Positions 6,295 to 32,532 of a stretch of DNA of 62,078 nucleotides are shown here, piece by piece. How positions within the stretch are numbered: the first letter of the stretch is position 1; the number at the start of each line of letters is the position of its first letter. The notes below the pieces were generated by a model. That model made no database searches, had not been told where the DNA came from, and saw only the letters and a list, made by a program, of their open reading frames with translations. This DNA comes from a virus, in the IMG/VR virus record IMGVR_UViG_3300034104_006372, positions 1 to 62,078 of that record. The stretch is one strand, 5' to 3'. The position numbers were made by a program, and so were the translations under genes.

Positions 6295-7920
6295 TTAAAG
6301 GGTGTTCAATCCGTTAATTTCAATTTTGCCATAGAATTCAGGACGTACCATCTTCTTAGCGTAACGAGTCAATAGACCTTTTCTTGGAGTAAAGGTATCT
6401 GGATCGTACACAAGTGGAGTCATGATCAATGGAATATAAGGAGAGAATACAGCACCAGTCTCAAGGAACTGAGCACCTCTAAATCCTAACAAGATTTGGT
6501 TTTCAAGCATGTAAGGGTTTTTGTAAACCTTAATCTTACCACCGCCTAAAGCACCAATTTTCTGTACTCCGAATGCGTAAGTTGACTTTTCAACATCACC
6601 ATCAACATCACCTGCAAATCCAGGGATAGATTCGATGATTGTAGAAACAGCTGGAGACAATACCATGAAGTTTGCACCACCACGAAGAGTTTTCTGGTGA
6701 ATAATGTTGCTTAACTTCTGGATTTTAGTTCCAAGAGTTTGGAACCACTGACCTTGGCTGTTATAGAAGCCTAAGTTAGAGAACGTTCCGTTAGATCCGT
6801 TATCAACGATAGCAACGTTGTTAACTGCAGACCATACTTCAGTTCCAGCAGCAGCAGAATCCATCAACATATCCAAGATTTCAAGGTCAATTTCCAAAGA
6901 AATGTACTCAGAAAGGATAGAAGTCAATTCAGCTTCAGCATCAAGAGCATGGTAAGCATTAAGATCTTGAGCAAATTCTGGAGTCCATACAGCCTTCAAT
7001 TTACGAGTTTTAGCAACGATAGCAGAAGATTTCATCTGTACGTTGATTTCAGGGATTGAAATTGGGTTGTTATTGCTGTTCAATGCAGTGTTTCCATCTT
7101 CAAAATCACCTCTGTATTGGTCAGTTGGTTGCTTTGAGAAAGTTACAGTTACCAAAGAAGATTGAACTGGAGCTTGAGAACCAGAAACGATAAATACTAA
7201 GTTAGATCCAACAACTTTAGTGAATTGTGGCAATTGAACCGCACCAGTAATAGAACCAGTAGTCAAAGTAAATGCTCTAATACCTTCAGCATCATATCCA
7301 CTTAAGCCAGATAAAGCTACGCTAACGGTCTTGTAACCACCAGCAACTACAGAAGCAGAGTAGTCAGAATCAAATAACATGTCAGACCATGTAGCAGATC
7401 CAGTAGTACCAGTTACTACAGAAGCAGTGTTGTTAATAGAATATCCGAATCGACCAGCACCGTATAAACCACCAGCATTTGTGTTACCAAATGGTTGTTC
7501 TGCTGCGCTAGAAGAACCGTATAAAGAGTTACCAGCAGTAAATGGAGCTTTTGTAGTTCCATACTGGAAGTCAAGATAGAATACTAGACCAGAAGGTAAG
7601 TTCATTGGCTGAACAGAAACGAATTCTTTCGCTGCAATTTGACCAAATACTTTTCTTACCAATGGAAGAGCAACTCCTGCCCATTGTTCACCCACACCTG
7701 CAGTGAATGTACCTTGAGAAGCAGTACCACCACCAGTTTGAGATGTTTCAACTACTAATTGCTTAGCTTGGTTTTCTAAGATGATACTCATGTTGTTCTT
7801 ATGTGTACCAGCCAAACCTTCTAGCAATCCTGTTTTTTCCCACTTGCTAGCTAATCTAGCGGCATCACTCTGTACAGAGTGATATGGGTTTGCGCTTTCT
7901 AAAAGAGATTGTAAGCTCAT
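6295..7920 (-). CDS. gp23: Major capsid protein, gp23-like
   Basis: The 541-residue protein shows the gp23 signature blocks: VRKVFGQIAAKEFVSVQPMN with PSGLVFYLDF near residues 90-120, and near residue 300 KTRKLKAVWTPEFAQDLNAYHALDAEAEL, which matches T4 KSRQLKAAYSIELAQDLRAVHGMDADAEL. It builds the capsid hexamers. The prohead protease cuts gp23 after (I/L)-x-E; here ILE49 and LLE34 are candidate sites. T4 gp23 has 521 residues. It is followed by a strong terminator. The ATG is preceded by an A-rich leader without Shine-Dalgarno. The codon use of this gene seems more even than that of its neighbours, as for a highly made protein. Confidence 0.96.
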   Translation of the reverse strand: MSLQSLLESANPYHSVQSDAARLASKWEKTGLLEGLAGTHKNNMSIILENQAKQLVVETSQTGGGTASQGTFTAGVGEQWAGVALPLVRKVFGQIAAKEFVSVQPMNLPSGLVFYLDFQYGTTKAPFTAGNSLYGSSSAAEQPFGNTNAGGLYGAGRFGYSINNTASVVTGTTGSATWSDMLFDSDYSASVVAGGYKTVSVALSGLSGYDAEGIRAFTLTTGSITGAVQLPQFTKVVGSNLVFIVSGSQAPVQSSLVTVTFSKQPTDQYRGDFEDGNTALNSNNNPISIPEINVQMKSSAIVAKTRKLKAVWTPEFAQDLNAYHALDAEAELTSILSEYISLEIDLEILDMLMDSAAAGTEVWSAVNNVAIVDNGSNGTFSNLGFYNSQGQWFQTLGTKIQKLSNIIHQKTLRGGANFMVLSPAVSTIIESIPGFAGDVDGDVEKSTYAFGVQKIGALGGGKIKVYKNPYMLENQILLGFRGAQFLETGAVFSPYIPLIMTPLVYDPDTFTPRKGLLTRYAKKMVRPEFYGKIEINGLNTL

Positions 7921-7956: not shown

Positions 7957-9264
7957 TTATTTGATACCAGCTAGCTTCTGCCATCTGGCAACCATTGGAT
8001 CAACTTCTACAATTGGTTGTTTGCTTTCGCTAATAAACCCTGTAGCTTTTGAAGCACTACCTTTGATTTCATTCATCATAGAAGTTTTAACAGTTTTAGA
8101 TGTCATTCCTTCGTTCAATGTTTCAAAGATAACTTTAGCTTCTTTTACAGATGAAGCCTTGTCAAAAGCCTTCAATACTCTAAGTTTTTGGCTTTCGTTA
8201 AGGTTTTTGGAATTGAAGATTTTGTTAGTGTACAAAAGTTTAGCGTTCAACAAATTAACTTCTTGAAGTTCTTTCTTAAGTTCTTCAATTTCGTTCATTT
8301 CGTCTTCAACTTCTGATACTCTTTCTGTGTTAATTCCAGATGCTTTAGCTGTATCTTCAATATCGTTTGCTAATTCTGCTCCTTTTGCACCAAGTTTACC
8401 TGATTTAAGTACTCGCATCAGTTTTTCAATAGCAAATCCCGATCCAAAAATTGATGCTACTCCACCAACTATTATTGGTAATGAAATTTCAAAAGGAATA
8501 GCACTAGGGTCAGTTTTTATAATTTGTAAAAGCTGTTGTCCTATATCCTGAAGCATTGCTGCATCAATTTCTTGAAGAGGAGTTTTAGTTTCTTCAACTT
8601 CTTCACCTTCGTTAACGGCATAAGCGGAAGTAGTTTGTCCTACTTTTGTTGGGGCTAACTTCTCTAAAGTAGTACCTCTTGCAGGATTATTTTTCTCATT
8701 CCAACTTACTTCGTCCATTTCGTCTAATTCCTCCATGTCGCCCATTTCTTCTTCAGCTTCCATGTCGCCCATCTCGGCTTCCATTTCTTCTCCAGCTTCC
8801 AATTCACCTGCAGCTACCATGTCGGCAATTACATCCTCGATAAAAGATTTAAGATCATCTTCGGTCATGTCTTCTAGGTCGATTTCTACGTCTTCCATTT
8901 CGCCAGCTTCCATTTCGCCTTCTTCTCCGGCTTCCATTTCATCTTCAGCTTCATACATTTCTTTTTTGTCTTCACCTTCTTCAAGTTCCGCAAGGATTTC
9001 GTTCAAATCGAATTCTTCTTCGATTTCATCCTTCATCTCATTTACTTCAACTTCTTTCATCGTGTCTTCCTCTTTAGCTTTCATGGCTTCTTTAACGTCT
9101 TCGTCTTCGTCTTCGTTATCCATTGCTTCTAATTTAAGGGCCAACATTTCTTTCAGACGTGGAGCAAATGCTTCTTCTAAAGCAGCTTTTGCGTTTGCAA
9201 TAGCAGTTTCTTTAACAGCTTTTGCATCAGCGATTGCCTCTTTAAGCAAGTCTCTGTTTGTCAT
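7957..9264 (-). CDS. gp22: Prohead scaffold/core protein, gp22-like
   Basis: I place the start at 9264 (MTNRDLLKEAIADAKAVKE), giving 435 residues; a longer frame upstream runs through hairpins and is not credible. The protein is very acidic (Glu/Asp/Met-rich, residues about 45-190) with an N-terminal helix and C-terminal coiled coil (LNESQKLRVLKAFDKASS), like T4 gp22, the core scaffold destroyed by gp21. It lies between protease and capsid genes, the T4 order 21-22-23. Unusual: a hydrophobic stretch near 260-285 (LPIIVGGVASIFGSGFAI), and a C-terminus RWQKLAGIK that resembles the RMQKLAGI tag of three proteins at 20380-22078. Confidence 0.85.
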   Translation of the reverse strand: MTNRDLLKEAIADAKAVKETAIANAKAALEEAFAPRLKEMLALKLEAMDNEDEDEDVKEAMKAKEEDTMKEVEVNEMKDEIEEEFDLNEILAELEEGEDKKEMYEAEDEMEAGEEGEMEAGEMEDVEIDLEDMTEDDLKSFIEDVIADMVAAGELEAGEEMEAEMGDMEAEEEMGDMEELDEMDEVSWNEKNNPARGTTLEKLAPTKVGQTTSAYAVNEGEEVEETKTPLQEIDAAMLQDIGQQLLQIIKTDPSAIPFEISLPIIVGGVASIFGSGFAIEKLMRVLKSGKLGAKGAELANDIEDTAKASGINTERVSEVEDEMNEIEELKKELQEVNLLNAKLLYTNKIFNSKNLNESQKLRVLKAFDKASSVKEAKVIFETLNEGMTSKTVKTSMMNEIKGSASKATGFISESKQPIVEVDPMVARWQKLAGIK

Positions 9265-9477: not shown

Positions 9478-10089
9478 TTAAAATATTGGGCAACTGCCTT
9501 TAGAGCAGAGTATTTCGTGTATAATGCTATTTACTTTATTGTAGTTTGCAGTAGGATATTCTTTACCTTCTCGCAATACTGACATAAATGAGCCTGGATT
9601 GGATGGGGTAGAAACAAAATCCCAACATAGTAATTCGAAATCATCTTGTACTTCCATTACATTACCTCTTTGCTCTAATGAACCCATTCCTCGGGAAGAT
9701 ACACCTACAGTGATGTTGTTATGGATTAATGCTTGTAAAATTTGACCAGATGGAGTATCAAGTATTTCAATTTTACCCATTACATTATCTCCATCCCACC
9801 AGTAATCGGAAATGATGTGAGATACATTTTTTAGGTTAATAATTTGGGATTCAGGGTGGTCTAATTCACCTATAGCACGTCTTTGTTTGATTTGCTCGGA
9901 ATATTTTTTCATTTCACGATCCCACAGATCACGAGCATAATATCTACCATTACCATTTTTAACCTCAGCTGTAGCTAGTATACCTACTACTATTAGAGGT
10001 TTCTTTACCCCACCAACATTTTCAGTTAGTGGGGCAGCAGAAATTTTAATAGGATGGGTTTCTATAAGTAATTGCTTATTCATTATCAA
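9478..10089 (-). CDS. gp21: Prohead core serine protease, gp21-like
   Basis: A 203-residue protein (T4 gp21: 212). It has the family blocks NGNGRYYARDLWDREM (46-60), GELDHPE with the catalytic His at 78, and VGVSSRGMGS with the catalytic Ser at 131 or 132. The family matures the prohead by cutting scaffold, capsid and internal proteins after (I/L)-x-E. Its own N-terminus carries LIE10 and LTE23, possible self-cleavage sites as in T4. The start overlaps the upstream gene by 14 bp. Family call is secure; this enzyme is the likely processor of the tagged proteins at 17-33 kb. Confidence 0.93.
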   Translation of the reverse strand: MIMNKQLLIETHPIKISAAPLTENVGGVKKPLIVVGILATAEVKNGNGRYYARDLWDREMKKYSEQIKQRRAIGELDHPESQIINLKNVSHIISDYWWDGDNVMGKIEILDTPSGQILQALIHNNITVGVSSRGMGSLEQRGNVMEVQDDFELLCWDFVSTPSNPGSFMSVLREGKEYPTANYNKVNSIIHEILCSKGSCPIF

Positions 10090-11548
10090 ATGAGGATTCG
10101 TCTACCATTTCTTTGGTATATTTTTTACCACCAGTCATTTTTCCGTACATAGCCTCCATCTTAGCTTTAGTTTTTTCTAAGATTTTGATTTCTTTTTGCA
10201 TTTCTTTTACTTTAACTTTATCTACTAATTCAGCTAGATTAGCATCTTCTTGGATCATGCTTAATCTTTCCATTTTAGCAGAAATCATTTCGCTAACTCT
10301 ATCTAATTTAGCTTCCATAGCAACGATTCCAGCTTGGGTATCGATTTCGGCTAGGTCAGCATCTAAAGATTCTTTTTTAACTTTCTTTTTTTCGGGTTTT
10401 GGTTCAGCTTCTTCAACATTTTCAACTTCAGCTGTTATTTCTACTTCTTCACCAATTGCATTTTCGTTAATAGATTGGATTTTAGTTTCTAGATCGCCAA
10501 TTGAGTTTTCTAAATCATCTAATTGTTCTTGATACCAATCACCTGATGCAGCAAATTCTAGATCTGTTTCTTTTTCCATAGCAGAAATCAAATCAAAATA
10601 TGCCTTTTTAAGCATGTTTAACTTTTGTGTTAAAGTTTGCTTCTTATTAATTACTTTTTGATCAGGAGCAACACCTGCTTTTTTCTGCATTTGAAGCATT
10701 CTGAGTTGAGCCATTTTCTCTTCAAAGTCAGAATCTTCACTTAAACTTTTGCCTCCTTTACCTTTAATTATCTGGTTAGCTGCTGCTTGCAATTCTGCAT
10801 CGTGTTTTTTAAACCATTGAACTACATCTTCGTTTTTCTTCATAGCAACTCTTCTTTGAGCACCACTGTCTATATAATCAGTGTCAAAATCGTACCATCT
10901 CATTATTTTTACAGCTAAATCTTCAGCAGAAGTAGAAAGTGGGTTTGTAATTTCTTCTTTTACCAAAGATTCTTTAACCATTTTCTTTAGCTTATCAGAA
11001 TAGCCAGATGAAGCATATTTTCCAGATACCTCTTCCATTTTTGTTTCTTGATATCCTAATCCTTTAACACCAAATGCAGCATTTTTCATATAGTACTGTC
11101 CGTCTTTAGCTAAGTTTTTTTCTACAATTTTACGAAGCTCGTCTAATGTTTTGTCTGGGTTTTCTCTGCCTTCAAAATATAGACCATTCAATACTTCTTG
11201 ACCAATTTGGTTGTCAAGATTAGTTTTGTTTTTATAGTCGTAGTTATGATCTTGAATGTCTTCTACTTCTTTGGTTGTTTTTTTCTCTACTGCTTTAGCT
11301 TCTTCAGCTAAAAATTGAGCGAATTTATTTTCCCAAGCTGTTTTTGGAGAAGCCTCAATTGTATTGATTGGTTTTAAATCAACATAATTTTCGGAAATCA
11401 CACCACGTGTTTTTAACATTTTAGATGCTTCTTCAAATCCCATTGGATTTGTTAGCATGTTAGGGAATTGCTTTTTAGCCTCAGTAAGGAATATACCCTT
11501 GTGACCTTTTCCCTCTTTAATCAAATTGTATTGTTCTTGTAGAGTCAT
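10076..11548 (-). CDS. Probable prohead core / internal virion protein
   Basis: This 490-residue protein is charged and mostly helical, with coiled-coil segments at about 275-340 and 400-480 (KEMQKEIKILEKTKAKMEAM). It carries several (I/L)-x-E sites, for example LTE22, VISE (52-53 region) and ESLVKEE. It lies in the head operon between the portal and the protease, overlapping the protease start by 14 bp, a place held in T4 by the core genes 67 and 68. No enzymatic motif is visible. Similar long helical proteins exist in environmental T4-like phages. Core role is inferred from position and composition. Confidence 0.6.
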   Translation of the reverse strand: MTLQEQYNLIKEGKGHKGIFLTEAKKQFPNMLTNPMGFEEASKMLKTRGVISENYVDLKPINTIEASPKTAWENKFAQFLAEEAKAVEKKTTKEVEDIQDHNYDYKNKTNLDNQIGQEVLNGLYFEGRENPDKTLDELRKIVEKNLAKDGQYYMKNAAFGVKGLGYQETKMEEVSGKYASSGYSDKLKKMVKESLVKEEITNPLSTSAEDLAVKIMRWYDFDTDYIDSGAQRRVAMKKNEDVVQWFKKHDAELQAAANQIIKGKGGKSLSEDSDFEEKMAQLRMLQMQKKAGVAPDQKVINKKQTLTQKLNMLKKAYFDLISAMEKETDLEFAASGDWYQEQLDDLENSIGDLETKIQSINENAIGEEVEITAEVENVEEAEPKPEKKKVKKESLDADLAEIDTQAGIVAMEAKLDRVSEMISAKMERLSMIQEDANLAELVDKVKVKEMQKEIKILEKTKAKMEAMYGKMTGGKKYTKEMVDESSFDNE

Positions 11549-16910: not shown

Positions 16911-17151
16911 TTCTTAAGGTATTTATACTATTATCTTTTAAATCAAGTTCTTGATCCAATTTAGATATTTGTATGTTTAAGGTATCAATTTTCAAAGACA
17001 AATCATCGTTCACATCTTGGAGTGAATCGACCTTTTCATCTAGTTTTTCGATTTTTAAATTATATTCTTCAACGTAATCTTCTTTTTTATTGAAGAAAAA
17101 TAAAATAAAAATACAAACTATTACTACAACTAATATATTAAAATATTTCAC
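16783..17151 (-). CDS. Membrane-anchored coiled-coil protein, i-spanin-like (Rz-like)
   Basis: A 122-residue protein with an N-terminal membrane segment (YFNILVVVIVCIFILFFF, about residues 3-20) and then a long coiled coil (about 28-90: KIEKLDEKVDSLQDVNDDL). This is the layout of Rz-type inner-membrane spanins. Its 3' end overlaps a second secreted coiled-coil gene by 128 bp in another frame, like lambda Rz/Rz1. It overlaps the stop of the preceding gene by 4 bp. Sequence similarity to known spanins was not visible, so the call rests on topology and gene overlap. Confidence 0.55.
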   Translation of the reverse strand: MKYFNILVVVIVCIFILFFFNKKEDYVEEYNLKIEKLDEKVDSLQDVNDDLSLKIDTLNIQISKLDQELDLKDNSINTLRNEVNEKVSSVDSYTDDELKEFFTNRYRYYFDSLRKANSSSSN

Positions 17152-17654
17152 TTTTCTTTAGGGAATACAATAGCTTCTAGTTCTTTCTTAAGATCAGTTT
17201 TCTTTCTTAAGTCAGCTAACATTTTTTCTTTTTCAGCTCCTTCAGCTTCTTTATATTTTTTACCTAAAGATTTCATTTCTTTAGTTAATCTAGCTAACTC
17301 ATCTTTTGCTTTAGCTATACCTTTAGTGGTTTTAGCAATATTTTTTAACTCAGATTTAGTTGGTCCTTTATCTTTATCTCCATCTTCATCTTCAACCTTA
17401 TAATAATCATCCTTTACTTCTACATCCTCCTCATCCTTTTTAGCTTCTTTGATTTTTTTAGAACCCATAGCTATACTATTTACATTAGGATCAGATTTTA
17501 GCTTATTGATAGTAGCAGTATCTGTGGGGTCAATATCTAATACCTTATCAGACATTGCTGGATTTTTGTAGTCTATAGTAGTTTTTTGAGGGGCTTCAGA
17601 TAACATTTTAACGATTTGCTCCTTAATGTATTCCTTAAGTTCTGATTTTTTCAT
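17148..17654 (-). CDS. Charged protein with KKSELK-type N-terminal tag, probable internal protein
   Basis: This 168-residue protein begins MKKSELKEYIKEQIVKMLSE, an amphipathic helix that ends in an (I/L)-x-E site (LSE19 followed by Ala), and resembles the start of the 22356-22697 protein. The rest is extremely charged (Lys, Glu, Asp) with a coiled-coil end (KDELARLTKEMKSLGKKYKE). That composition recalls T4 prohead core and internal proteins. A late element is located 24 nt upstream. Function unknown; capsid localisation is inferred. Confidence 0.6.
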   Translation of the reverse strand: MKKSELKEYIKEQIVKMLSEAPQKTTIDYKNPAMSDKVLDIDPTDTATINKLKSDPNVNSIAMGSKKIKEAKKDEEDVEVKDDYYKVEDEDGDKDKGPTKSELKNIAKTTKGIAKAKDELARLTKEMKSLGKKYKEAEGAEKEKMLADLRKKTDLKKELEAIVFPKEK

Positions 17655-20379: not shown

Positions 20380-20952
20380 TTAGCTATATATAAATTTAAT
20401 AACATCATCAAGTTTATCTTTAGCTTTTGGATTAGTTTTGGCGTAATTCTTTAGTTTATCTACAATAAAATATCTTTTTACTACATCAGAATCAGCTGCA
20501 TTTTTTACATTTTGAATGAGAGTTTTAGCCATTGGGTCATTGCTATCCATAGCTAAAAAGAAAGATGCGGGGTCAAATTTGTATTCTTCATCTGAAGGTA
20601 ATTCATCCAAAGTTACAGTAGCTCCAAACTTGATATCTCCGTTAGGGAGTAATTCTACGTTAATGTCAGGATTACCTTCCAAAGTATCTTTGCCACCTAC
20701 AGAAGCTAGATATTTTGATAGAGCGTTAAATTCATCAGCATTAGGGTATGCTTCTTCATCTCCATATTCTTCTTTCTCCCATACACCTTCAAAATATTCT
20801 CCTTCTTCCATTTCATCGCTTACACTAGCATCCCACATGCCAGATATATAATCTTCAAATTGTTCAATATTTTCGTTTAATTGTTCTTCAGTTATGATAC
20901 CCGCTAATCTCTGCATTCTGCGGAATTGTTCATTTAAAATTTGCTTTGCCAT
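20380..20952 (-). CDS. Tagged internal-protein candidate (copy 1)
   Basis: A 190-residue acidic protein. Residues 1-28 (MAKQILNEQFRRMQRLAGII then TEEQLNEN) are nearly identical to the starts of the next two genes. The LNE7 and LNE26 triplets fit the (I/L)-x-E site of prohead proteases. The C-terminal 60 residues (FDPASFFLAMDSNDPMAKTL) are shared with the next gene, whereas the middle is unrelated. No enzymatic motif. I infer a capsid-targeted internal protein; the C-terminal domain is a new paralogous helical module. Confidence 0.65.
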   Translation of the reverse strand: MAKQILNEQFRRMQRLAGIITEEQLNENIEQFEDYISGMWDASVSDEMEEGEYFEGVWEKEEYGDEEAYPNADEFNALSKYLASVGGKDTLEGNPDINVELLPNGDIKFGATVTLDELPSDEEYKFDPASFFLAMDSNDPMAKTLIQNVKNAADSDVVKRYFIVDKLKNYAKTNPKAKDKLDDVIKFIYS

Positions 20953-20965
20953 TGTTTTGTTATTT

Positions 20966-21523
20966 TTAGCTATTTATAAACTCAATAGCAGCATCAAGTT
21001 TACCTTTAACTTCTGGATTAGCTTTAGCGTGATCTTTTAGTTTGTTTATAATAGTAGATCTTTTAGATAGATCAGAATCAGCTACTTTCTTTATGTTTTG
21101 GATAAAAGATTTTGCATTTGGATCTTTACTATCCATAGCTGAAAAGTAAGATGCAGCATTGAATTCGTTTTCTTCATTTAATTGTCCAGAAGCTAACTCT
21201 CTGATCATATCAAATAATTCAGACGCATCCATATCATCTTCTAGATCAACACCTAAAGTTCTTTCATTAATAGCATTAATTAACTCTTCAGCAGAAGAAA
21301 CATTCATTTGAGAATTTAAATTGCTATAATCTTCTTCCTCAGCCTCAATATCGTCCAACATTTCTAATTCAGATTGGAGGAAATTAGCTTTGATAGTATC
21401 AAAGTTTTGGCTAACAAACTTAACCATCTCACTTGCTACATTTTCATTTAATTGCTCTTCGGTTATGATACCTGCTAGTTTTTGCATTCTGCGAAATTGT
21501 TCGCTTAAAATTTGCTTTGCCAT
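20966..21523 (-). CDS. Tagged internal-protein candidate (copy 2)
   Basis: This 185-residue protein is a paralogue of the 20380-20952 product: the same 28-residue tag (MAKQILSEQFRRMQKLAGII) and the same C-terminal module (FNAASYFSAMDSKDPNAKSF, then IQNIKKVADSDLSKR), with a different acidic middle (EMLDDIEAEEEDYS). The tag ends in LNE26, a possible prohead-protease site. The two genes are 13 bp apart and arose by tandem duplication. Role unknown. Confidence 0.65.
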   Translation of the reverse strand: MAKQILSEQFRRMQKLAGIITEEQLNENVASEMVKFVSQNFDTIKANFLQSELEMLDDIEAEEEDYSNLNSQMNVSSAEELINAINERTLGVDLEDDMDASELFDMIRELASGQLNEENEFNAASYFSAMDSKDPNAKSFIQNIKKVADSDLSKRSTIINKLKDHAKANPEVKGKLDAAIEFINS

Positions 21524-21535
21524 TATTTTATTAGT

Positions 21536-22078
21536 TTATTTTACTGTTCCGCCTTTAGCTGTTTCTTTAAACTTAAAGGTTAAGATATACCAAAATCCAT
21601 CTTGCTGACTAAAGCCATATATCATATTTGGATATTTTTCAAAAATTTGTTTTAATATTTCATTACCCAAATTATCAACATATTTCTTTATTTCTGGATT
21701 GTTAAACCAATTTCCTTTTGCTGATATTGCGCTTGAAGTGATGTTTTGTCCAAATTTCTCTGCTGCTTTATATGACCAATCATTACCCCCACCTACCATT
21801 ACTTTAGCAACAGATTCTGCAGTTATTGCTACCAATACTCTTTCATCTGGTTGGTCTGTTACTATTATTTGGACTGCTTGATCTCCTTCTCCAATTTTTT
21901 TAGTTTTATCAGTTTCAATCTTACTTCTTAATTCAGGTCGAAATCCCTTACTCTTTAAAAAGGAATAAAGTTGTTTAGACATTTGTTTTAGTTCCAAAAT
22001 ATCCTCATTTAACTGTTCTTCAGTGATAAGACCAGCCAACACCTGCATTCTGCGAAATTGTTCGTTTAGGATTGCCAT
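21536..22078 (-). CDS. Tagged internal-protein candidate with a distinct body
   Basis: The 180-residue protein carries the same N-terminal tag in slightly shorter form (MAILNEQFRRMQVLAGLITE) but its body is unrelated to the other two: a mixed alpha/beta domain (LYSFLKSKGFRPELRSKI, VQIIVTDQPDERVLVAITAE, and GFWYILTFKFKE). The body resembles a small substrate-binding or ADP-ribosyl-type fold but no active-site motif is clear. Reuse of one tag on different bodies is the main evidence that the tag is an address signal. Confidence 0.6.
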   Translation of the reverse strand: MAILNEQFRRMQVLAGLITEEQLNEDILELKQMSKQLYSFLKSKGFRPELRSKIETDKTKKIGEGDQAVQIIVTDQPDERVLVAITAESVAKVMVGGGNDWSYKAAEKFGQNITSSAISAKGNWFNNPEIKKYVDNLGNEILKQIFEKYPNMIYGFSQQDGFWYILTFKFKETAKGGTVK

Positions 22079-22355: not shown

Positions 22356-22697
22356 TTAATCATTTTCTTTTAAACCATAGGGAATTCCTATTATTCCGTG
22401 GACTGTTTTTCTAAACATTTTTTGGGACTCAACTTGAATAGCTTTCATAAGTAAATTTTGCAAAACTAAATTATCTTTTAGTAAAGCAATTTTACCATTA
22501 TCGCCATTATGAAAAAAATAACTTAATTTAAGAATCATGTTATTATCTTCATCTATGTCTATTTTAACAGTTGGTATATCATCTAATGGGTTAGGATCAA
22601 CTAATTTATTACTTTCTTTAGTATTAAAAATATAGTGATCTTTTCCTACTTTTTGTAATTCTTCTCTAACAAGTTGTTTTAGCTGGGATTTTTTCAT
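22356..22697 (-). CDS. Small protein with KKSQLK-type N-terminal tag
   Basis: A 113-residue protein that begins MKKSQLKQLVREELQKVGKD, similar to the start of the 17148-17654 protein. The rest has beta strands (TVKIDIDEDNNMILKLSYFF) and a helical end. No known domain. It lies between the cupin and the Cys-rich gene in the tagged cluster. Capsid targeting is only inferred from the N-terminal resemblance. Confidence 0.55.
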   Translation of the reverse strand: MKKSQLKQLVREELQKVGKDHYIFNTKESNKLVDPNPLDDIPTVKIDIDEDNNMILKLSYFFHNGDNGKIALLKDNLVLQNLLMKAIQVESQKMFRKTVHGIIGIPYGLKEND

Positions 22698-22726: not shown

Positions 22727-23140
22727 TTAGTTATCTGTTAAAGGACCGCCAACAACCCAAGCATCGCATGTTCGAGCCGCAGCGCATTTGAATTTCAAAA
22801 ACCGACAATACCCTAATTTTCCGGCATCAATTACATCAAATGGATCTTCTGTTCCACCATCACTGCCTATTCCTTTAGCAATGCAATCTAGTGTTTTGGT
22901 TGTAATGTCGAAAGCAGCACAATTGGCACATAGTGATTTTTTAGCTTCTTCGGCAGAATCTAACTTCCACATATCCACTTTGGCCTGCCAAAACTTTTCG
23001 TTTGGTTCGTTTGGATTTAGAGGTCCGTATCCATACTCGTTAATAGCTTTTTGTCTGTTCTCAAGATTAAGTGCTATATTTTGGGTTGGAGCAGGACATT
23101 CGTTTAGCTCTACCTCGTTTAATATGTCAAGTAGTTTCAT
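22727..23140 (-). CDS. Cysteine-rich protein with capsid-targeting-like N-terminus
   Basis: The 137-residue protein starts MKLLDILNEVELNE, close to the T4 internal protein signal MKTYQEFIAE with (I/L)-x-E at LNE9. The C-terminal half has cysteines at CANCAAF, then TLDCIAKG, LGYCRFLKFKCAA and RTCDAW. Six or more Cys in this order recall small iron-sulphur (HiPIP-like) proteins, also noted in other marine phages. It might bind a metal or an Fe-S cluster. Its start overlaps the next gene by 4 bp. Confidence 0.6.
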   Translation of the reverse strand: MKLLDILNEVELNECPAPTQNIALNLENRQKAINEYGYGPLNPNEPNEKFWQAKVDMWKLDSAEEAKKSLCANCAAFDITTKTLDCIAKGIGSDGGTEDPFDVIDAGKLGYCRFLKFKCAAARTCDAWVVGGPLTDN

Positions 23141-23460
23141 TGTTTTTTATCTCGTATAAGTAATTCACCTAGTACCTCTAATCGACCTACCTCCCTCTGG
23201 AATTCAACAGCGGTCATATTCAATGAAATACTTTTTAATGTGCTATCAAATTCTTTTTTAGCTGCTTCTTCGTCAAATTTACCAGCAGTTGCTTTTTTGT
23301 AATATGGAGCCTTTACTTTAAAGTGATGCCATGTTAACAAAGCTAATCCACCTTTTTCCTCAGCTGTAGCTGCTATTTTAGCAGCACCTTCACCTCGTGT
23401 AGCAGCAAATTCTTCAAAGCTTTCTTTAGCTTCGGTTAGTAGTTGAAGTAGTTTTATCAT
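23137..23460 (-). CDS. Small internal-protein candidate
   Basis: A 107-residue helical protein beginning MIKLLQLLTEAKESFEEF; LTE10 followed by Ala is exactly the form of the T4 internal-protein cleavage site (FIAE|A). The body is helical and basic/acidic mixed (KKEFDSTLKSISLNMTAVEF). ATGA overlaps tie it to both neighbours. No known domain. The most economical idea is a capsid-targeted internal protein. Confidence 0.6.
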   Translation of the reverse strand: MIKLLQLLTEAKESFEEFAATRGEGAAKIAATAEEKGGLALLTWHHFKVKAPYYKKATAGKFDEEAAKKEFDSTLKSISLNMTAVEFQREVGRLEVLGELLIRDKKQ

Positions 23461-23963
23461 GATTTTTTATTTTTTATAGGAGCATATCCGGAACCATAGG
23501 GTGCTGCTTTACCAGATTGTGGATCTGATGTTTCTTTTAATTTATTTAAACGTTGTGTTTTTGCTTTAGAAGATTCTTTGCGAGATTCAATATAGTCTAG
23601 AGCACGTTTTAAACGAGATTTTACCTCAGCATCTTTAGCTTTACCGTATGCAGCTCTAACACGTTGGTGTATTAAATTAATAATTTGTGACTGGCGAGCG
23701 TGAGATTTAGCTTTAAATGAATCTTTATTTAACGTATCAACTATGTCTTCCTTAGTTTTAAATTTAATAGATACAGTATCGCTTGGATTTTCGTCTGTGT
23801 ATAGGCGACGACCCGATCCTTTAGGTTTTTTGCCAGTACCAATTTTAGGATCTGCTTCTTCTAAACCACCAGGTGTATTTAATTTTTTACCAGTTTTGGT
23901 ATCAGTAGTATACCCACAAGTTCCTTCAATAATTTCTTGTAATATATCAAGTAGCTTTATCAT
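23457..23963 (-). CDS. Basic DUF5872-like protein with capsid-targeting-like N-terminus
   Basis: I choose the start at 23963 (MIKLLDILQEI) because this ATG overlaps the upstream stop as ATGA; an ATG 15 bp earlier is less likely. LQE10 is a possible protease site. The body (168 aa in total) contains GSGRRLYTDENPSDTVSIKF and SHARQSQIINLIHQRVRAAY, a domain I remember as DUF5872, found in phages and large viruses of algae. It is highly basic, so DNA binding inside the head is plausible. The DUF number is from memory. Confidence 0.65.
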   Translation of the reverse strand: MIKLLDILQEIIEGTCGYTTDTKTGKKLNTPGGLEEADPKIGTGKKPKGSGRRLYTDENPSDTVSIKFKTKEDIVDTLNKDSFKAKSHARQSQIINLIHQRVRAAYGKAKDAEVKSRLKRALDYIESRKESSKAKTQRLNKLKETSDPQSGKAAPYGSGYAPIKNKKS

Positions 23964-25138
23964 TTGGTTTTGCCCCATGTTTTGCCTTTACCTGAATCTT
24001 TACATCTAGCAGCTGTTGGTCTACAAGATGGATATTTTGCTCGTTCTTCACCTTTTTGGCGTCCACAAGGTTTGTATCCTGTTATTTTTCCATCTTTACG
24101 AATAGGAGAATTACAATCTACCCAACCACCTGTTTTACCTGGGGCTCCTTGGCGTTTAAACCATTTACGGAGAGATTCATCTTCTTTCAGAATTTCTTTT
24201 AATTGTGAAGTATTTAATATTTTAACTTTCATACTCTTATTAGCAGCTAAACCAGCATATAATCTAGTTCTTCCACCAATAACATATAAAGTTCCATTAA
24301 TATTAATTAACACAGGAGGTTCATAATTCCCTTTTACTACATTATCATAGTTTTGTACTGGGTTGTATCCTCTGTTTCTGTTTTCTTTTTCATCTCTTTT
24401 TTTCATGTAATCAGCATATTCTTGACGAGAATCTGGTGATTTACTAACACTGATCATATCTTTTATAAGAGATTCTTCTCCAGGTTTGTTATTAAAATTT
24501 TTGAGATTAGATATCTGAGAAGGAGATATGGTAGTTTCAGGAGTATTATCTATAATAGGAATTAGTCTATTTACTGATTCTTCATCATTTTTAAAACCTG
24601 CGTTGTTTATTACTTTAGATATGTTTAGGTCTTTTTGTCCTACCAATTCCCATGCTTCTTCATCACTTCCTTCTTTAATACCTTTCCATATTTTACCTTG
24701 ACGGCATCGTACTACTGCTCCAGATTTGTAAGCGGAAGGTTTATCAAATTTGCGATCTGCTATGCGCAAGCATCTATCTCTTTTGGTTTTTTTTTCCAAA
24801 AGCATTTCTTTAACTAACGACTTTAATCGAGTTTCTAATACATTTACTTGACCTGCTCTAAAGAAATTTACAGCAGGTATTTTGCGTATTTTTTCGATTA
24901 AACTATTGATTTGAGTATCTTTATCAAATTCAGTGAATGGGAAAGTGTCAAATTTTAAGCTTAATATACCAACGTGGTTTGGATTGCTTGCCGCACTTTC
25001 TTCCTCGTTTTTAGGGGTAAATGTTACAATCGTTATTCCCTCAATTGAGCGAATATCTGAGATAAGATCTGCTTGGGGGGTGATTGTGGTATTTAAACCT
25101 GCTTCTCCGCTTATTTGATATGTTCTATTGTATGACAT
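23960..25138 (-). CDS. Multidomain protein with ParB-like domain and Cys-rich C-terminus
   Basis: The 392-residue protein joins several modules. Residues 1-110 are a beta/alpha domain (ITIVTFTPKNEE). About 110-155 hold KKTKRDRCLRIADRKF and PSAYKSGAVVRCRQGK, a repeated Cys motif of virus proteins. About 195-315 is ParB/Srx-like (VLININGTLYVIGGRTRLYA, equal to the VDGxHRxxA step). The last 75 residues (GGWVDCNSPIRKDGKITGYK, then PCGRQKGEERAKYPSCRPTA) form a basic domain common in environmental phages. ParB-like folds can be CTPases or nucleases. It may be an injected DNA-acting protein; this is inference. Confidence 0.65.
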   Translation of the reverse strand: MSYNRTYQISGEAGLNTTITPQADLISDIRSIEGITIVTFTPKNEEESAASNPNHVGILSLKFDTFPFTEFDKDTQINSLIEKIRKIPAVNFFRAGQVNVLETRLKSLVKEMLLEKKTKRDRCLRIADRKFDKPSAYKSGAVVRCRQGKIWKGIKEGSDEEAWELVGQKDLNISKVINNAGFKNDEESVNRLIPIIDNTPETTISPSQISNLKNFNNKPGEESLIKDMISVSKSPDSRQEYADYMKKRDEKENRNRGYNPVQNYDNVVKGNYEPPVLININGTLYVIGGRTRLYAGLAANKSMKVKILNTSQLKEILKEDESLRKWFKRQGAPGKTGGWVDCNSPIRKDGKITGYKPCGRQKGEERAKYPSCRPTAARCKDSGKGKTWGKTK

Positions 25139-29953: not shown

Positions 29954-30529
29954 CTACCTTTTAAGCGATTCTAAATATTTAACCACTTCTTCTACGCTAT
30001 TATTTACTAGTTCTACATTTATTTTACCTCTCCATTTTTCAACATCCCCGTCTTCGGAAACAAAAGAATTGTTGCTTTCGCTTAATTTTTCTTCAATCCA
30101 CAATTTATATTCAATAATTTTATTCTCTATTTCATTGTTATGGATTCTGTTTTCGTATTCTTCCCACTTGCCTTCTTTTCTTAGGTTTGCCTCCATATCA
30201 ATAACGCAGTTAAAACACATTTTATGTATGTTATAAAATGGTTTATCGTTACGATTTTTCATTACTTTGCTGCAAACTGGACATAACAAAGGCATTACAT
30301 GGTATTTTTTAGCTTTATCAAATTTAGTTACATTTTGTTTAATACCACCTTTAATAGTCCAAGTTCTACCATCTATTTCCCATATATCTCCTTCAGTATG
30401 AAATTCTTCTTTTTTGGAAAATCCAACGCTTGAACGTGATTTTTCTCCATACTTACCTTGTACAAGATTACGAAGACGTTGTACATCTTTTTCTTTAAAG
30501 TCTTTCTTTAAAACTGATTCTTTACTCAT
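29954..30529 (-). CDS. Zinc-ribbon protein of unknown function
   Basis: A 191-residue protein with KEKDVQRLRNLVQGKYGEK, then GDIWEIDGRTWTIKGGIKQN and a probable zinc site CPVC (about residue 83) with CFNC (about 105). The zinc part and the following NCVIDMEANLRKEGKWEEYE helix recur in marine T4-like phages. It starts by a 4-bp overlap with the four-domain gene. A nucleic-acid or assembly role is possible; T4 has zinc-containing hub proteins, but no homology was established. Confidence 0.6.
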   Translation of the reverse strand: MSKESVLKKDFKEKDVQRLRNLVQGKYGEKSRSSVGFSKKEEFHTEGDIWEIDGRTWTIKGGIKQNVTKFDKAKKYHVMPLLCPVCSKVMKNRNDKPFYNIHKMCFNCVIDMEANLRKEGKWEEYENRIHNNEIENKIIEYKLWIEEKLSESNNSFVSEDGDVEKWRGKINVELVNNSVEEVVKYLESLKR

Positions 30530-32532
30530 AAACCTAATTGTTTTAATTGTTTAATGGTATTAGCAGTATTGGTATGAAGTATACCTATACCACCTGCTGC
30601 TTTCCATTGGTCTATATTTTTTTGTCTATCATCTATTAAAATAGAAGTTGGAGAAGCATATTCCTGTTTTTGAGAGGCATATTTTAAAATAAGCTTTACA
30701 CCAGGTAATTCTCGCTTTACCCAAACTCTTTTACCTAATTTAGAGGATTCTTCGCGTGATGGGGCAGACAATAGTATTGGATTATATTTTTTAATATAGT
30801 CCCATAGTTGTTTTCCGTCTGACATCCATTGCAGCGTAATCCAAAATTTGGCTCCTGCTTTAGAAAGTGGATCCCAAAATGCTTCTACCCCGTTAGCATC
30901 TGCTTGTTGGCTAGTCATACCTGTTAATTCTTGGTATCCACGATCAAAATCAACTAATACACTATCCATATCACAGTATATTGTATATTCTGTTTCTTCT
31001 TCCCTTAAACGGGCTAATTCCATAGCGTATGCGTTTAAGCCAAATGGATCTTTAGATTTCTTTTCCCTTAAACTATCGGACCAATTTCTAAAAGTAATGT
31101 TACCTTCCTCGTATGCTTCTCTTTCAATACCTTCTAAATAATCATCCTCGTTTGTATTAGTAGTTTTAATATCTCCGGTTCCAATTCTACCCTCTAGATT
31201 TTGGATGTGGTGAATCATTTCATGAGAAAATGATCGTACTATATCTTTAGGATGGCGTCCTTCAGTATATAATACAATTTCCATAGTTTTGGGTTTGTAA
31301 TACGCAGTTTTGCCTAAAAATTGTTTAGCATTTTCTGCATCTCCATGTTTGAATATTACTTTAGGTAAAGGAACAATATTCATCCCTTTATCTATCATAT
31401 GTTGAGTTAGCTCTTTAATTTTTTGCTTTATATCTATGTGCTGTGAATATGAAGCATTTTCGTTTAAAGAGTTGGATTTAGGTATATTTAAATCCTTAGT
31501 ATTAAAATAAGTTTTTAAATCAATACCTTTATTTTTAGCATCTTTTAAATCAATAGTTTCAGGAACTATACCTTCTTCCCATTCAGTTTCAGGAGTTGCT
31601 AAAACAACATCACTATCATTTAAAATAATAGCCTTTATTTCAGGTACATTTCCTATTTTAAAGGCACCTAAACGGTGATTACCATCCACAACTAAATATT
31701 TTCCAGGTAATAGTGGGTGTTTTAAAGCCACAACTGGGGAGAATGATTCTATACCTTTTTCTTTAACAGACTTTATCATTTTTTCAATATAAGATTTTTT
31801 TTCTGTATTGAAATAATTAAAATCTTTACCGGGTTCATTTCCAATGCTATCGCTAACTTTTAAAACTTTTACTTCTCCTTTTGGATTTTCAGCAATATCA
31901 CTTCCTTGAAAATTTGGATATATAATAGTTTTATCAGAAGGTTGATCTAAATTTTCTTGCATTTTACCAGATACTATTTGGTATACTTCCTTTTTTTCTT
32001 CGGGTGTTAAAACACTAGGTAGAAAGGGTTCAAACTTTTCAAATGATACTTTAGAAGCATTTCTAGCAGCTGTACCTGATACTCCACCTTTAGTTATAAT
32101 AGTTCTAGCCTCAATATTTGGGTAGTTGGTTATAGATTTGGTACGTGAACCAATATCTGTAAAATCTTGTTCATTGTCTTCTCTAGCACCTAAAATCCAT
32201 AATATTTCTCTTGTGGGGTGATTTTTTGCAAAATCATATACTGCTTTAATTGGGGGTAAAGAACTAAGTTCTATTTTAACCTTAAATGGTAGATACTTGT
32301 TGTATATTTCCCAAATTAATAAAGATTCCTCTTGCGATACACCATCACGTTCTTTGGAACCTACAAAAATTATAAATTCATCTATTTCTGGGTTTTGCTT
32401 AAGTGCTTCTTGCACAACAGCAAAATGACCTGCTGTAGGGGGTTTAAATCCACCTGCATATAAGGCAGTGGTTTGTTTTTTTTCTTCCTCGGGTAAGAAG
32501 TTTTTAATTATTTCTTGTACTAATCTATTCAT
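30526..32532 (-). CDS. Four-domain protein: nucleotidyltransferase, ParB-like, HExxH, HAD-like
   Basis: The 668-residue protein joins four enzyme-like modules. Residues 24-190: nucleotidyltransferase with YAGGFKPPTAGH (25-36), ending IITKGGVSGTAAR. Residues 245-310: ParB/Srx-like core GKYLVVDGNHRLGAFKIG. Residues 370-485: metallopeptidase-like with HEMIH (437-441) and REAYEEG as possible third ligand. Residues 514-668: HAD phosphatase with YCDMDSVLVDFD (519-530) and ILIDDRQKN (631-639), like 5'(3')-deoxyribonucleotidases. The N-terminus (MNRLVQEIIKNFLPEE) has an LPE15 site. No frameshift breaks it. Joint function unknown; processing by the prohead protease could separate it from a capsid tag. 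Confidence 0.75.
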   Translation of the reverse strand: MNRLVQEIIKNFLPEEEKKQTTALYAGGFKPPTAGHFAVVQEALKQNPEIDEFIIFVGSKERDGVSQEESLLIWEIYNKYLPFKVKIELSSLPPIKAVYDFAKNHPTREILWILGAREDNEQDFTDIGSRTKSITNYPNIEARTIITKGGVSGTAARNASKVSFEKFEPFLPSVLTPEEKKEVYQIVSGKMQENLDQPSDKTIIYPNFQGSDIAENPKGEVKVLKVSDSIGNEPGKDFNYFNTEKKSYIEKMIKSVKEKGIESFSPVVALKHPLLPGKYLVVDGNHRLGAFKIGNVPEIKAIILNDSDVVLATPETEWEEGIVPETIDLKDAKNKGIDLKTYFNTKDLNIPKSNSLNENASYSQHIDIKQKIKELTQHMIDKGMNIVPLPKVIFKHGDAENAKQFLGKTAYYKPKTMEIVLYTEGRHPKDIVRSFSHEMIHHIQNLEGRIGTGDIKTTNTNEDDYLEGIEREAYEEGNITFRNWSDSLREKKSKDPFGLNAYAMELARLREEETEYTIYCDMDSVLVDFDRGYQELTGMTSQQADANGVEAFWDPLSKAGAKFWITLQWMSDGKQLWDYIKKYNPILLSAPSREESSKLGKRVWVKRELPGVKLILKYASQKQEYASPTSILIDDRQKNIDQWKAAGGIGILHTNTANTIKQLKQLGL

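Follow-up and report, generated by a model that had tools for sequence, protein, structure and literature searches.

In phage T4, N-terminal capsid-targeting (CTS) propeptides are well established, and the prohead protease gp21 cleaves after L/I-x-E (PMC9026906). The passages of the T4 review that deal with CTS peptides describe an affinity for the core and name no binding site (PMC9026906). They are short peptides that can be exchanged between the unrelated small proteins on which they stand, IPI, IPII, IPIII and Alt; IPII and IPIII both start MKTYQEFIAE. Comparable head propeptides, N-terminal, removable and cut after glutamate, occur in phiKZ and SPN3US; they exceed 100 residues in several cases, SPN3US cuts at A-x-E, and the sections of the report that treat these propeptides mention no likeness to the scaffold (PMC5694885).

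Here we analyze a window of 62,078 nucleotides (the whole of IMG/VR record IMGVR_UViG_3300034104_006372), a 62 kb fragment of a T4-like phage in which three adjacent minus-strand open reading frames have an N-terminal peptide in common, ILNEQFRRMQxLAG[IL]ITEEQLNE. Like the T4 CTS, this tag is a short N-terminal peptide found on unrelated small proteins, is swappable between bodies and ends in the L/I-x-E consensus, and the phage has both a gp21-like protease and a gp22-like scaffold. Unlike the T4 CTS, which is about 10 residues long (MKTYQEFIAE), it spans about 26 residues of a different sequence, has cleavage-type sites flanking its core, and repeats in that core the C-terminus of the scaffold. 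From the phiKZ and SPN3US propeptides it differs in length and in the SPN3US cleavage motif. Short peptides also dock cargo inside the HK97-fold shell of encapsulins, and in P22 cargo fused to the scaffold gets enclosed; these bind the shell protein and, unlike what we propose for the tag, are not known to be removed by a prohead protease.

Results

Head genes and tagged proteins of the window

The features on which the analysis rests are collected in Table 1. Capsid and protease genes were identified with PHROG profiles, as was a portal gene, and the capsid protein shares 57.9% identity with its counterpart in Flavobacterium phage immuto. PHROG profiles gave no match to the scaffold of the window, which was recognized by the place of its gene, between the capsid and protease genes and directly before the former, and by likeness to proteins of immuto and Microcystis phage Mel-JY01 found with tblastn. 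The RWQKLAGIK reported earlier for its C-terminus is confirmed by the end of the open reading frame, ...PIVEVDPMVARWQKLAGIK (ARWQKLAGIK).

Table 1. Head genes, tagged proteins and tag peptides in the window
Feature	Position	Strand	Basis or remark
Major capsid protein, gp23-like	6295..7920	-	PHROG 138, E 4e-62
gp22-like scaffold, ATG form, 435 aa	7957..9264	-	Position and similarity to immuto gp067 and a Mel-JY01 protein
Scaffold C-terminal peptide, VDPMVARWQKLAGIK	7960..8004	-	After cleavage-like site IVE
Prohead protease, gp21-like	9478..10083	-	PHROG 207, E 2e-57
Probable core protein of the prohead, encoded between the portal and protease genes	10076..11548	-	Relative of immuto gp071; a relative holds an inserted cargo module
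Tagged protein 1, 190 aa	20380..20952	-	ORF; tag, body and C-terminal module
Tag of protein 1, MAKQILNEQFRRMQRLAGIITEEQLNE	20872..20952	-	Predicted cut after LNE
Tagged protein 2, 185 aa	20966..21523	-	ORF
Tag of protein 2, MAKQILSEQFRRMQKLAGIITEEQLNE	21443..21523	-	
Tagged protein 3, 180 aa	21536..22078	-	ORF
Tag of protein 3, MAILNEQFRRMQVLAGLITEEQLNE	22004..22078	-	

The original prediction described a 28-residue tag on three proteins, two with a common C-terminal module and the third with an unrelated body. The tag is indeed common to all three, but counted to the LNE that ends it in each, its length is 27, 27 and 25 residues. Proteins 1 and 2 do have a C-terminal module in common, about 65 aa long, and the body of protein 3 is unrelated to either. 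In the tag of protein 1, [ILM]xE sites end at residues 8, 22 and 27, and additional predicted cuts possibly fall after ILNE and IITE; an 88% relative in L302 bears the same tag. In protein 2 a second LNE immediately precedes the module held in common with protein 1, and the middle part of the protein appears dispensable, since L079 fuses the tag directly to this C-terminal module. The AlphaFold model of protein 3 (mean pLDDT 68.5) was compared with the PDB by Foldseek, and nothing scored below E 0.067.

The pattern [KR][MW]Q.LAG[IL] matched four times in the 19,501 aa of minus-strand open reading frames, against a mean of 0.0 in 2000 shuffles. Among the three window tags pN is 0.03–0.09 and pS 0.54–0.93: synonymous sites have diverged while amino acids are kept, so that the peptide and not the DNA is conserved, and the tag peptide is under strong protein-level selection. 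These values contradict the idea that the tag is repeated DNA or a translation leader, hitch-hiking after a recent duplication or recombination with no role for the peptide. Its presence on neighbouring genes would suit such an origin, as would a fused gene with two tandem tags (L322), yet the motif is also found at C-termini and inside proteins and is tied to scaffold tails, and we find this explanation scarcely credible.

Two other features of the window were recorded. A T4 late-promoter-like sequence, TATAAATA, occurs 31 times against 20 expected; as a promoter of the tagged genes it was rejected, since the plus strand holds most copies and these show no tie to the genes in question. The protein at 30526-32532 has by eye a nucleotidyltransferase-like motif, GGFKPPTAGHF, and in the same genome region immuto has a protein annotated NadR.

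Distribution of the tag

Searches of IMG/VR found the pattern RMQxLAG[IL]IT in 118 stretches and RWQKLAGI in at least 119. In 98 mutually dissimilar proteins from viral contigs the motif lies at residues 5–24, within the first 25, and the exact pattern RMQKLAGIIT, the one pattern searched there, was absent from 84,980 prokaryote genomes; the tag is thus modular, as had been proposed, recurring on unrelated bodies and specific to these phages. RWQKLAGI in viral contigs stands, among the matches listed, almost always within 0–7 residues of the stop, for the most part in gp22-like scaffolds encoded next to the capsid gene, and 108 of 119 such loci, again among the matches listed, also hold capsid, protease or portal genes. 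The position and partners of the motif, which it had been suggested should be recorded, divide into N-terminal copies on diverse bodies and C-terminal copies mostly on gp22-like scaffolds. Several C-terminal tags of other lineages, outside the main scaffold family, are likewise placed in head gene clusters among the matches listed; in L183, L210 and L218, for instance, the tag directly adjoins the protease gene.

The family consists of T4-like phages of Bacteroidetes, in which many unrelated small proteins start with a probably removable peptide of about 26 residues. In the isolate immuto two proteins carry the tag, gp083 (MKKQILSEQFRRMQKLAGIITESQFNE) and another encoded at 25 kb; the scaffold of this phage, gp067, is encoded next to the capsid gene and ends VSRWQKLAGIIK. 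When 110 tagged proteins were scanned against Pfam and PHROG, only scattered single matches resulted, including one exonuclease-like member. Most bodies match no known family, and the tag is not one found mostly on cytoplasmic enzymes.

Two unusual tagged proteins were also noted. In L322 (G003, ~67.9-68.1 kb) a 444-aa protein has two tandem internal tag copies and looks as if two tagged genes had fused and the second start had been kept (MKKQILNEEFKRMQKLAGIINE). In L102 (1886-2359) and L222 a tagged protein with YHSTDLQNASNILKSGEI resembles, by eye, ADP-ribosyltransferase-like domains; PHROG profiles gave no match to the L102 protein. T4 Alt is a packaged ADP-ribosyltransferase.

Cleavage-like sites and exchange of tags and bodies

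Among 117 distinct N-terminal tags, an [ILM]xE site has its E 3–4 residues ahead of the motif in 80 and 3 residues past it in 107; the DNA pattern that defined this set fixed I/L-I-T after the motif and left the E and the upstream residues free. For the C-terminal cases, among the matches listed, such an E precedes the motif by 7 residues in 56/84. Since [LI]xE sites are common in these acidic proteins, being present in 57% of 22-residue windows in scaffold bodies and 21% in cargo bodies, the fixed spacing alone is informative.

A motif near [IL]xE at fixed spacing, whether N- or C-terminal, would also be expected of a dock that recruits the gp21-like protease to nearby LxE sites, with packaging a by-product or the work of another signal. 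We hold this to be distinctly unlikely, since the tag profile misses the major capsid protein, which is the main protease substrate, and the T4 experiments recounted in the relevant part of the review tell targeting and processing apart within the CTS (PMC9026906).

Evidence for a junction between tag and body at a protease-type site is strongest for the body of protein 3, which is joined to at least three different N-termini at [LI][NK]E|DILELKQMSKQ. The cut at LNE put forward in the original prediction coincides, in this one family, with a junction that reads LNE|D, LKE|D or IKE|D. Relatives of protein 3 elsewhere start MRRQDKxxVIxEANQRLE..., MKHIKLFENFNYE... and in other ways, and in L292 SLNEN occupies the junction position behind a longer N-terminus. 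Further tag swaps, involving KLLDIL-type and FDLKKFL-type starts, came from an all-against-all search rerun with composition filters, the unfiltered search having been swamped by acidic low-complexity scaffolds.

Other repeated starts were observed as well. A second N-terminal tag, MRR[QFY]DKxxxIxEANQRLE (L296/L313, L298/L315 and L300), is carried, in larger relatives, by two or three genes that lie side by side downstream of the capsid gene. In the window itself, minus-strand 17148-17654, 22356-22697, 22727-23140, 23137-23460 and 23457-23978 have other short, group-typical N-terminal starts (MKKSELKEYIKEQIVKMLSE, MKKSQLKQLVREELQ, MKLLDILNE, MIKLLQLLTE and MIKLLDILQE), several ending in LxE; these look like further classes of targeting tag.

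The tag core and the scaffold tail

An HMM made from N-terminal tags only gave the scaffold C-terminus as the next-best match after the tagged proteins in the window (E 4e-4), in immuto (E 6e-6) and in Mel-JY01 (E 0.008), where the scaffold tail (VERMKKLAGIVK) is the sole match to the tag profile and no N-terminal cargo tag was detected; with reversed proteins as a control the best match had E 0.24. Circularity was avoided by picking phages through their N-terminal tag, with a search pattern that the scaffold is unable to match, and then reading the gene before the capsid gene. Among the 18 distinct phages so obtained, counted by eye with near-identical tails merged, the scaffold ends R-[MWF]-x-x-[LI]-A-[GN] in 17 and RMRALAFYNSKH in the remaining one. 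The tie between tag and scaffold that the window had suggested thus holds in 17 of 18 independent phages.

The scaffold tail is more widely distributed than the cargo tag. A C-terminal R-[MWI]-x-x-LAG-[IL], encoded by the gene before the capsid gene, is found in immuto, Mel-JY01 and RM378; the RM378 scaffold ends LERIKRLAGL and gave no tag-profile match. The motif is absent from T4 gp22, which ends SVYAKVASRF, and from HTVC008M gp22, which ends VKSRDIYNN. We had predicted that, in the clade where the protein 3 body bears the MRRQDKxxxIxEANQRLE tag, the scaffold tail would match that tag. This prediction failed: the scaffold there ends EKMKQLWEYEYKN, which differs from the tag, and a copied scaffold tail is thus not a general rule. 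A likeness of the tag to KWxKTGLLEG, a conserved motif towards the N-terminus of the capsid protein, was dropped because the tag profile missed it. The open-licence literature, searched by peptide letters, gave no match, and we found in it no description of a likeness between a cargo tag and a scaffold terminus.

The suggestion that the tag pairs with the scaffold tail does not survive in its original form, as tag and tail are identical in sequence, not complementary, and no co-variation of the two within one phage was seen by eye in L220, L116 and L099 (in L220 the cargo has RWQKLAGI and the scaffold RMQKLANI). Identity of sequence and lack of co-variation make a shared docking site, or scaffold-like co-assembly, likelier than tag-tail pairing. 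Direct binding between the tag and the RWQKLAGI tail of the scaffold could nonetheless occur as a homotypic contact, for example a short helix pair, given that both partners bear the same motif and that AlphaFold places a helix at tag residues 2–14, with low confidence (pLDDT 44–49). Partners with the same motif more often compete for a single site, however, and the presence in Mel-JY01 of a scaffold tail with no detected N-terminal cargo tag also speaks against such binding, which we regard as unlikely though by no means negligible.

Cargo modules inside prohead core proteins

In L104 a tagged protein has a body that shares 54% identity with a segment of a 361-aa L136 protein; the segment is inserted close to the C-terminus there, with MDE on both sides. 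The L136 protein, encoded between portal and protease, shares 70% identity with immuto gp071. A tagged module of L058 is likewise contained in an L064 protein between portal and protease, and the two cases are independent indications that such modules belong to the prohead core.

They bear on a further explanation, in which the tag is a signal for a non-virion site, at the membrane or in replication, and resembles the scaffold tail through a membrane-bound site of assembly common to both. T4 proheads are attached to the membrane while they assemble, according to the parts of two accounts that treat this step (PMC9026906, PMC5694885), and a scaffold tail might on that ground bind a membrane initiator. 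Protease-consensus junctions and a cargo module within a core protein point to the prohead interior, however, and we judge a non-virion destination very unlikely.

Discussion

We consider it likely that the tag is a cleavable capsid-targeting propeptide of the T4 type, docking at the site used by the identical scaffold tail. During head assembly the core RMQxLAG[IL] would dock the tagged protein in the prohead core, at the site otherwise used by the C-terminal peptide of the gp22-like scaffold, and docking would enclose the cargo in the head. The gp21-like protease, which is presumed to be the enzyme that removes the tag, would then cut after [LI]xE, at LNE in the window tags and at IVE before the scaffold tail, so as to free the mature cargo inside the head and release the tag and tail peptides. 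The sequences show the tag, its modularity, selection on its amino acids, the [LI]xE sites on either side, the tag/body junction at [LI]xE|D in one family and the match to the scaffold tail across many phages; from these features we infer packaging, cleavage and the docking site, and with them presence of the cargo in the virion and a later role for it. Candidate common receptors are the scaffold body, the inner face of the capsid, the portal or the protease.

The tag profile gave no match at E <= 1 in the T4 record, and homology to the T4 CTS is not indicated. CTSs are defined by function and site, so the missing match counts against homology and not against CTS-like working; the tag system appears to work like a T4-type CTS and should be called CTS-like. 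In T4, gp22 starts MLKEQLIAEA (L276, 8118-8927) and IPIII starts MKTYQEFIAEA (L291, 10835-11416). In T4, too, the CTS may thus resemble a scaffold terminus, there the N-terminus of gp22 (IAEA).

We further propose, while thinking it slightly more apt to be wrong than right, that cargo genes captured the terminal docking peptide of the scaffold. One code would then serve both head building and the choice of cargo, codes would differ by clade, and any gene with the peptide of its clade would be packaged and injected. Because the tag core equals the scaffold tail, it offers a concrete candidate docking site, testable in the isolated phage immuto on Flavobacterium, and the tag provides a simple means of picking out, by sequence, candidate packaged proteins from the small unannotated genes of environmental T4-like phages.
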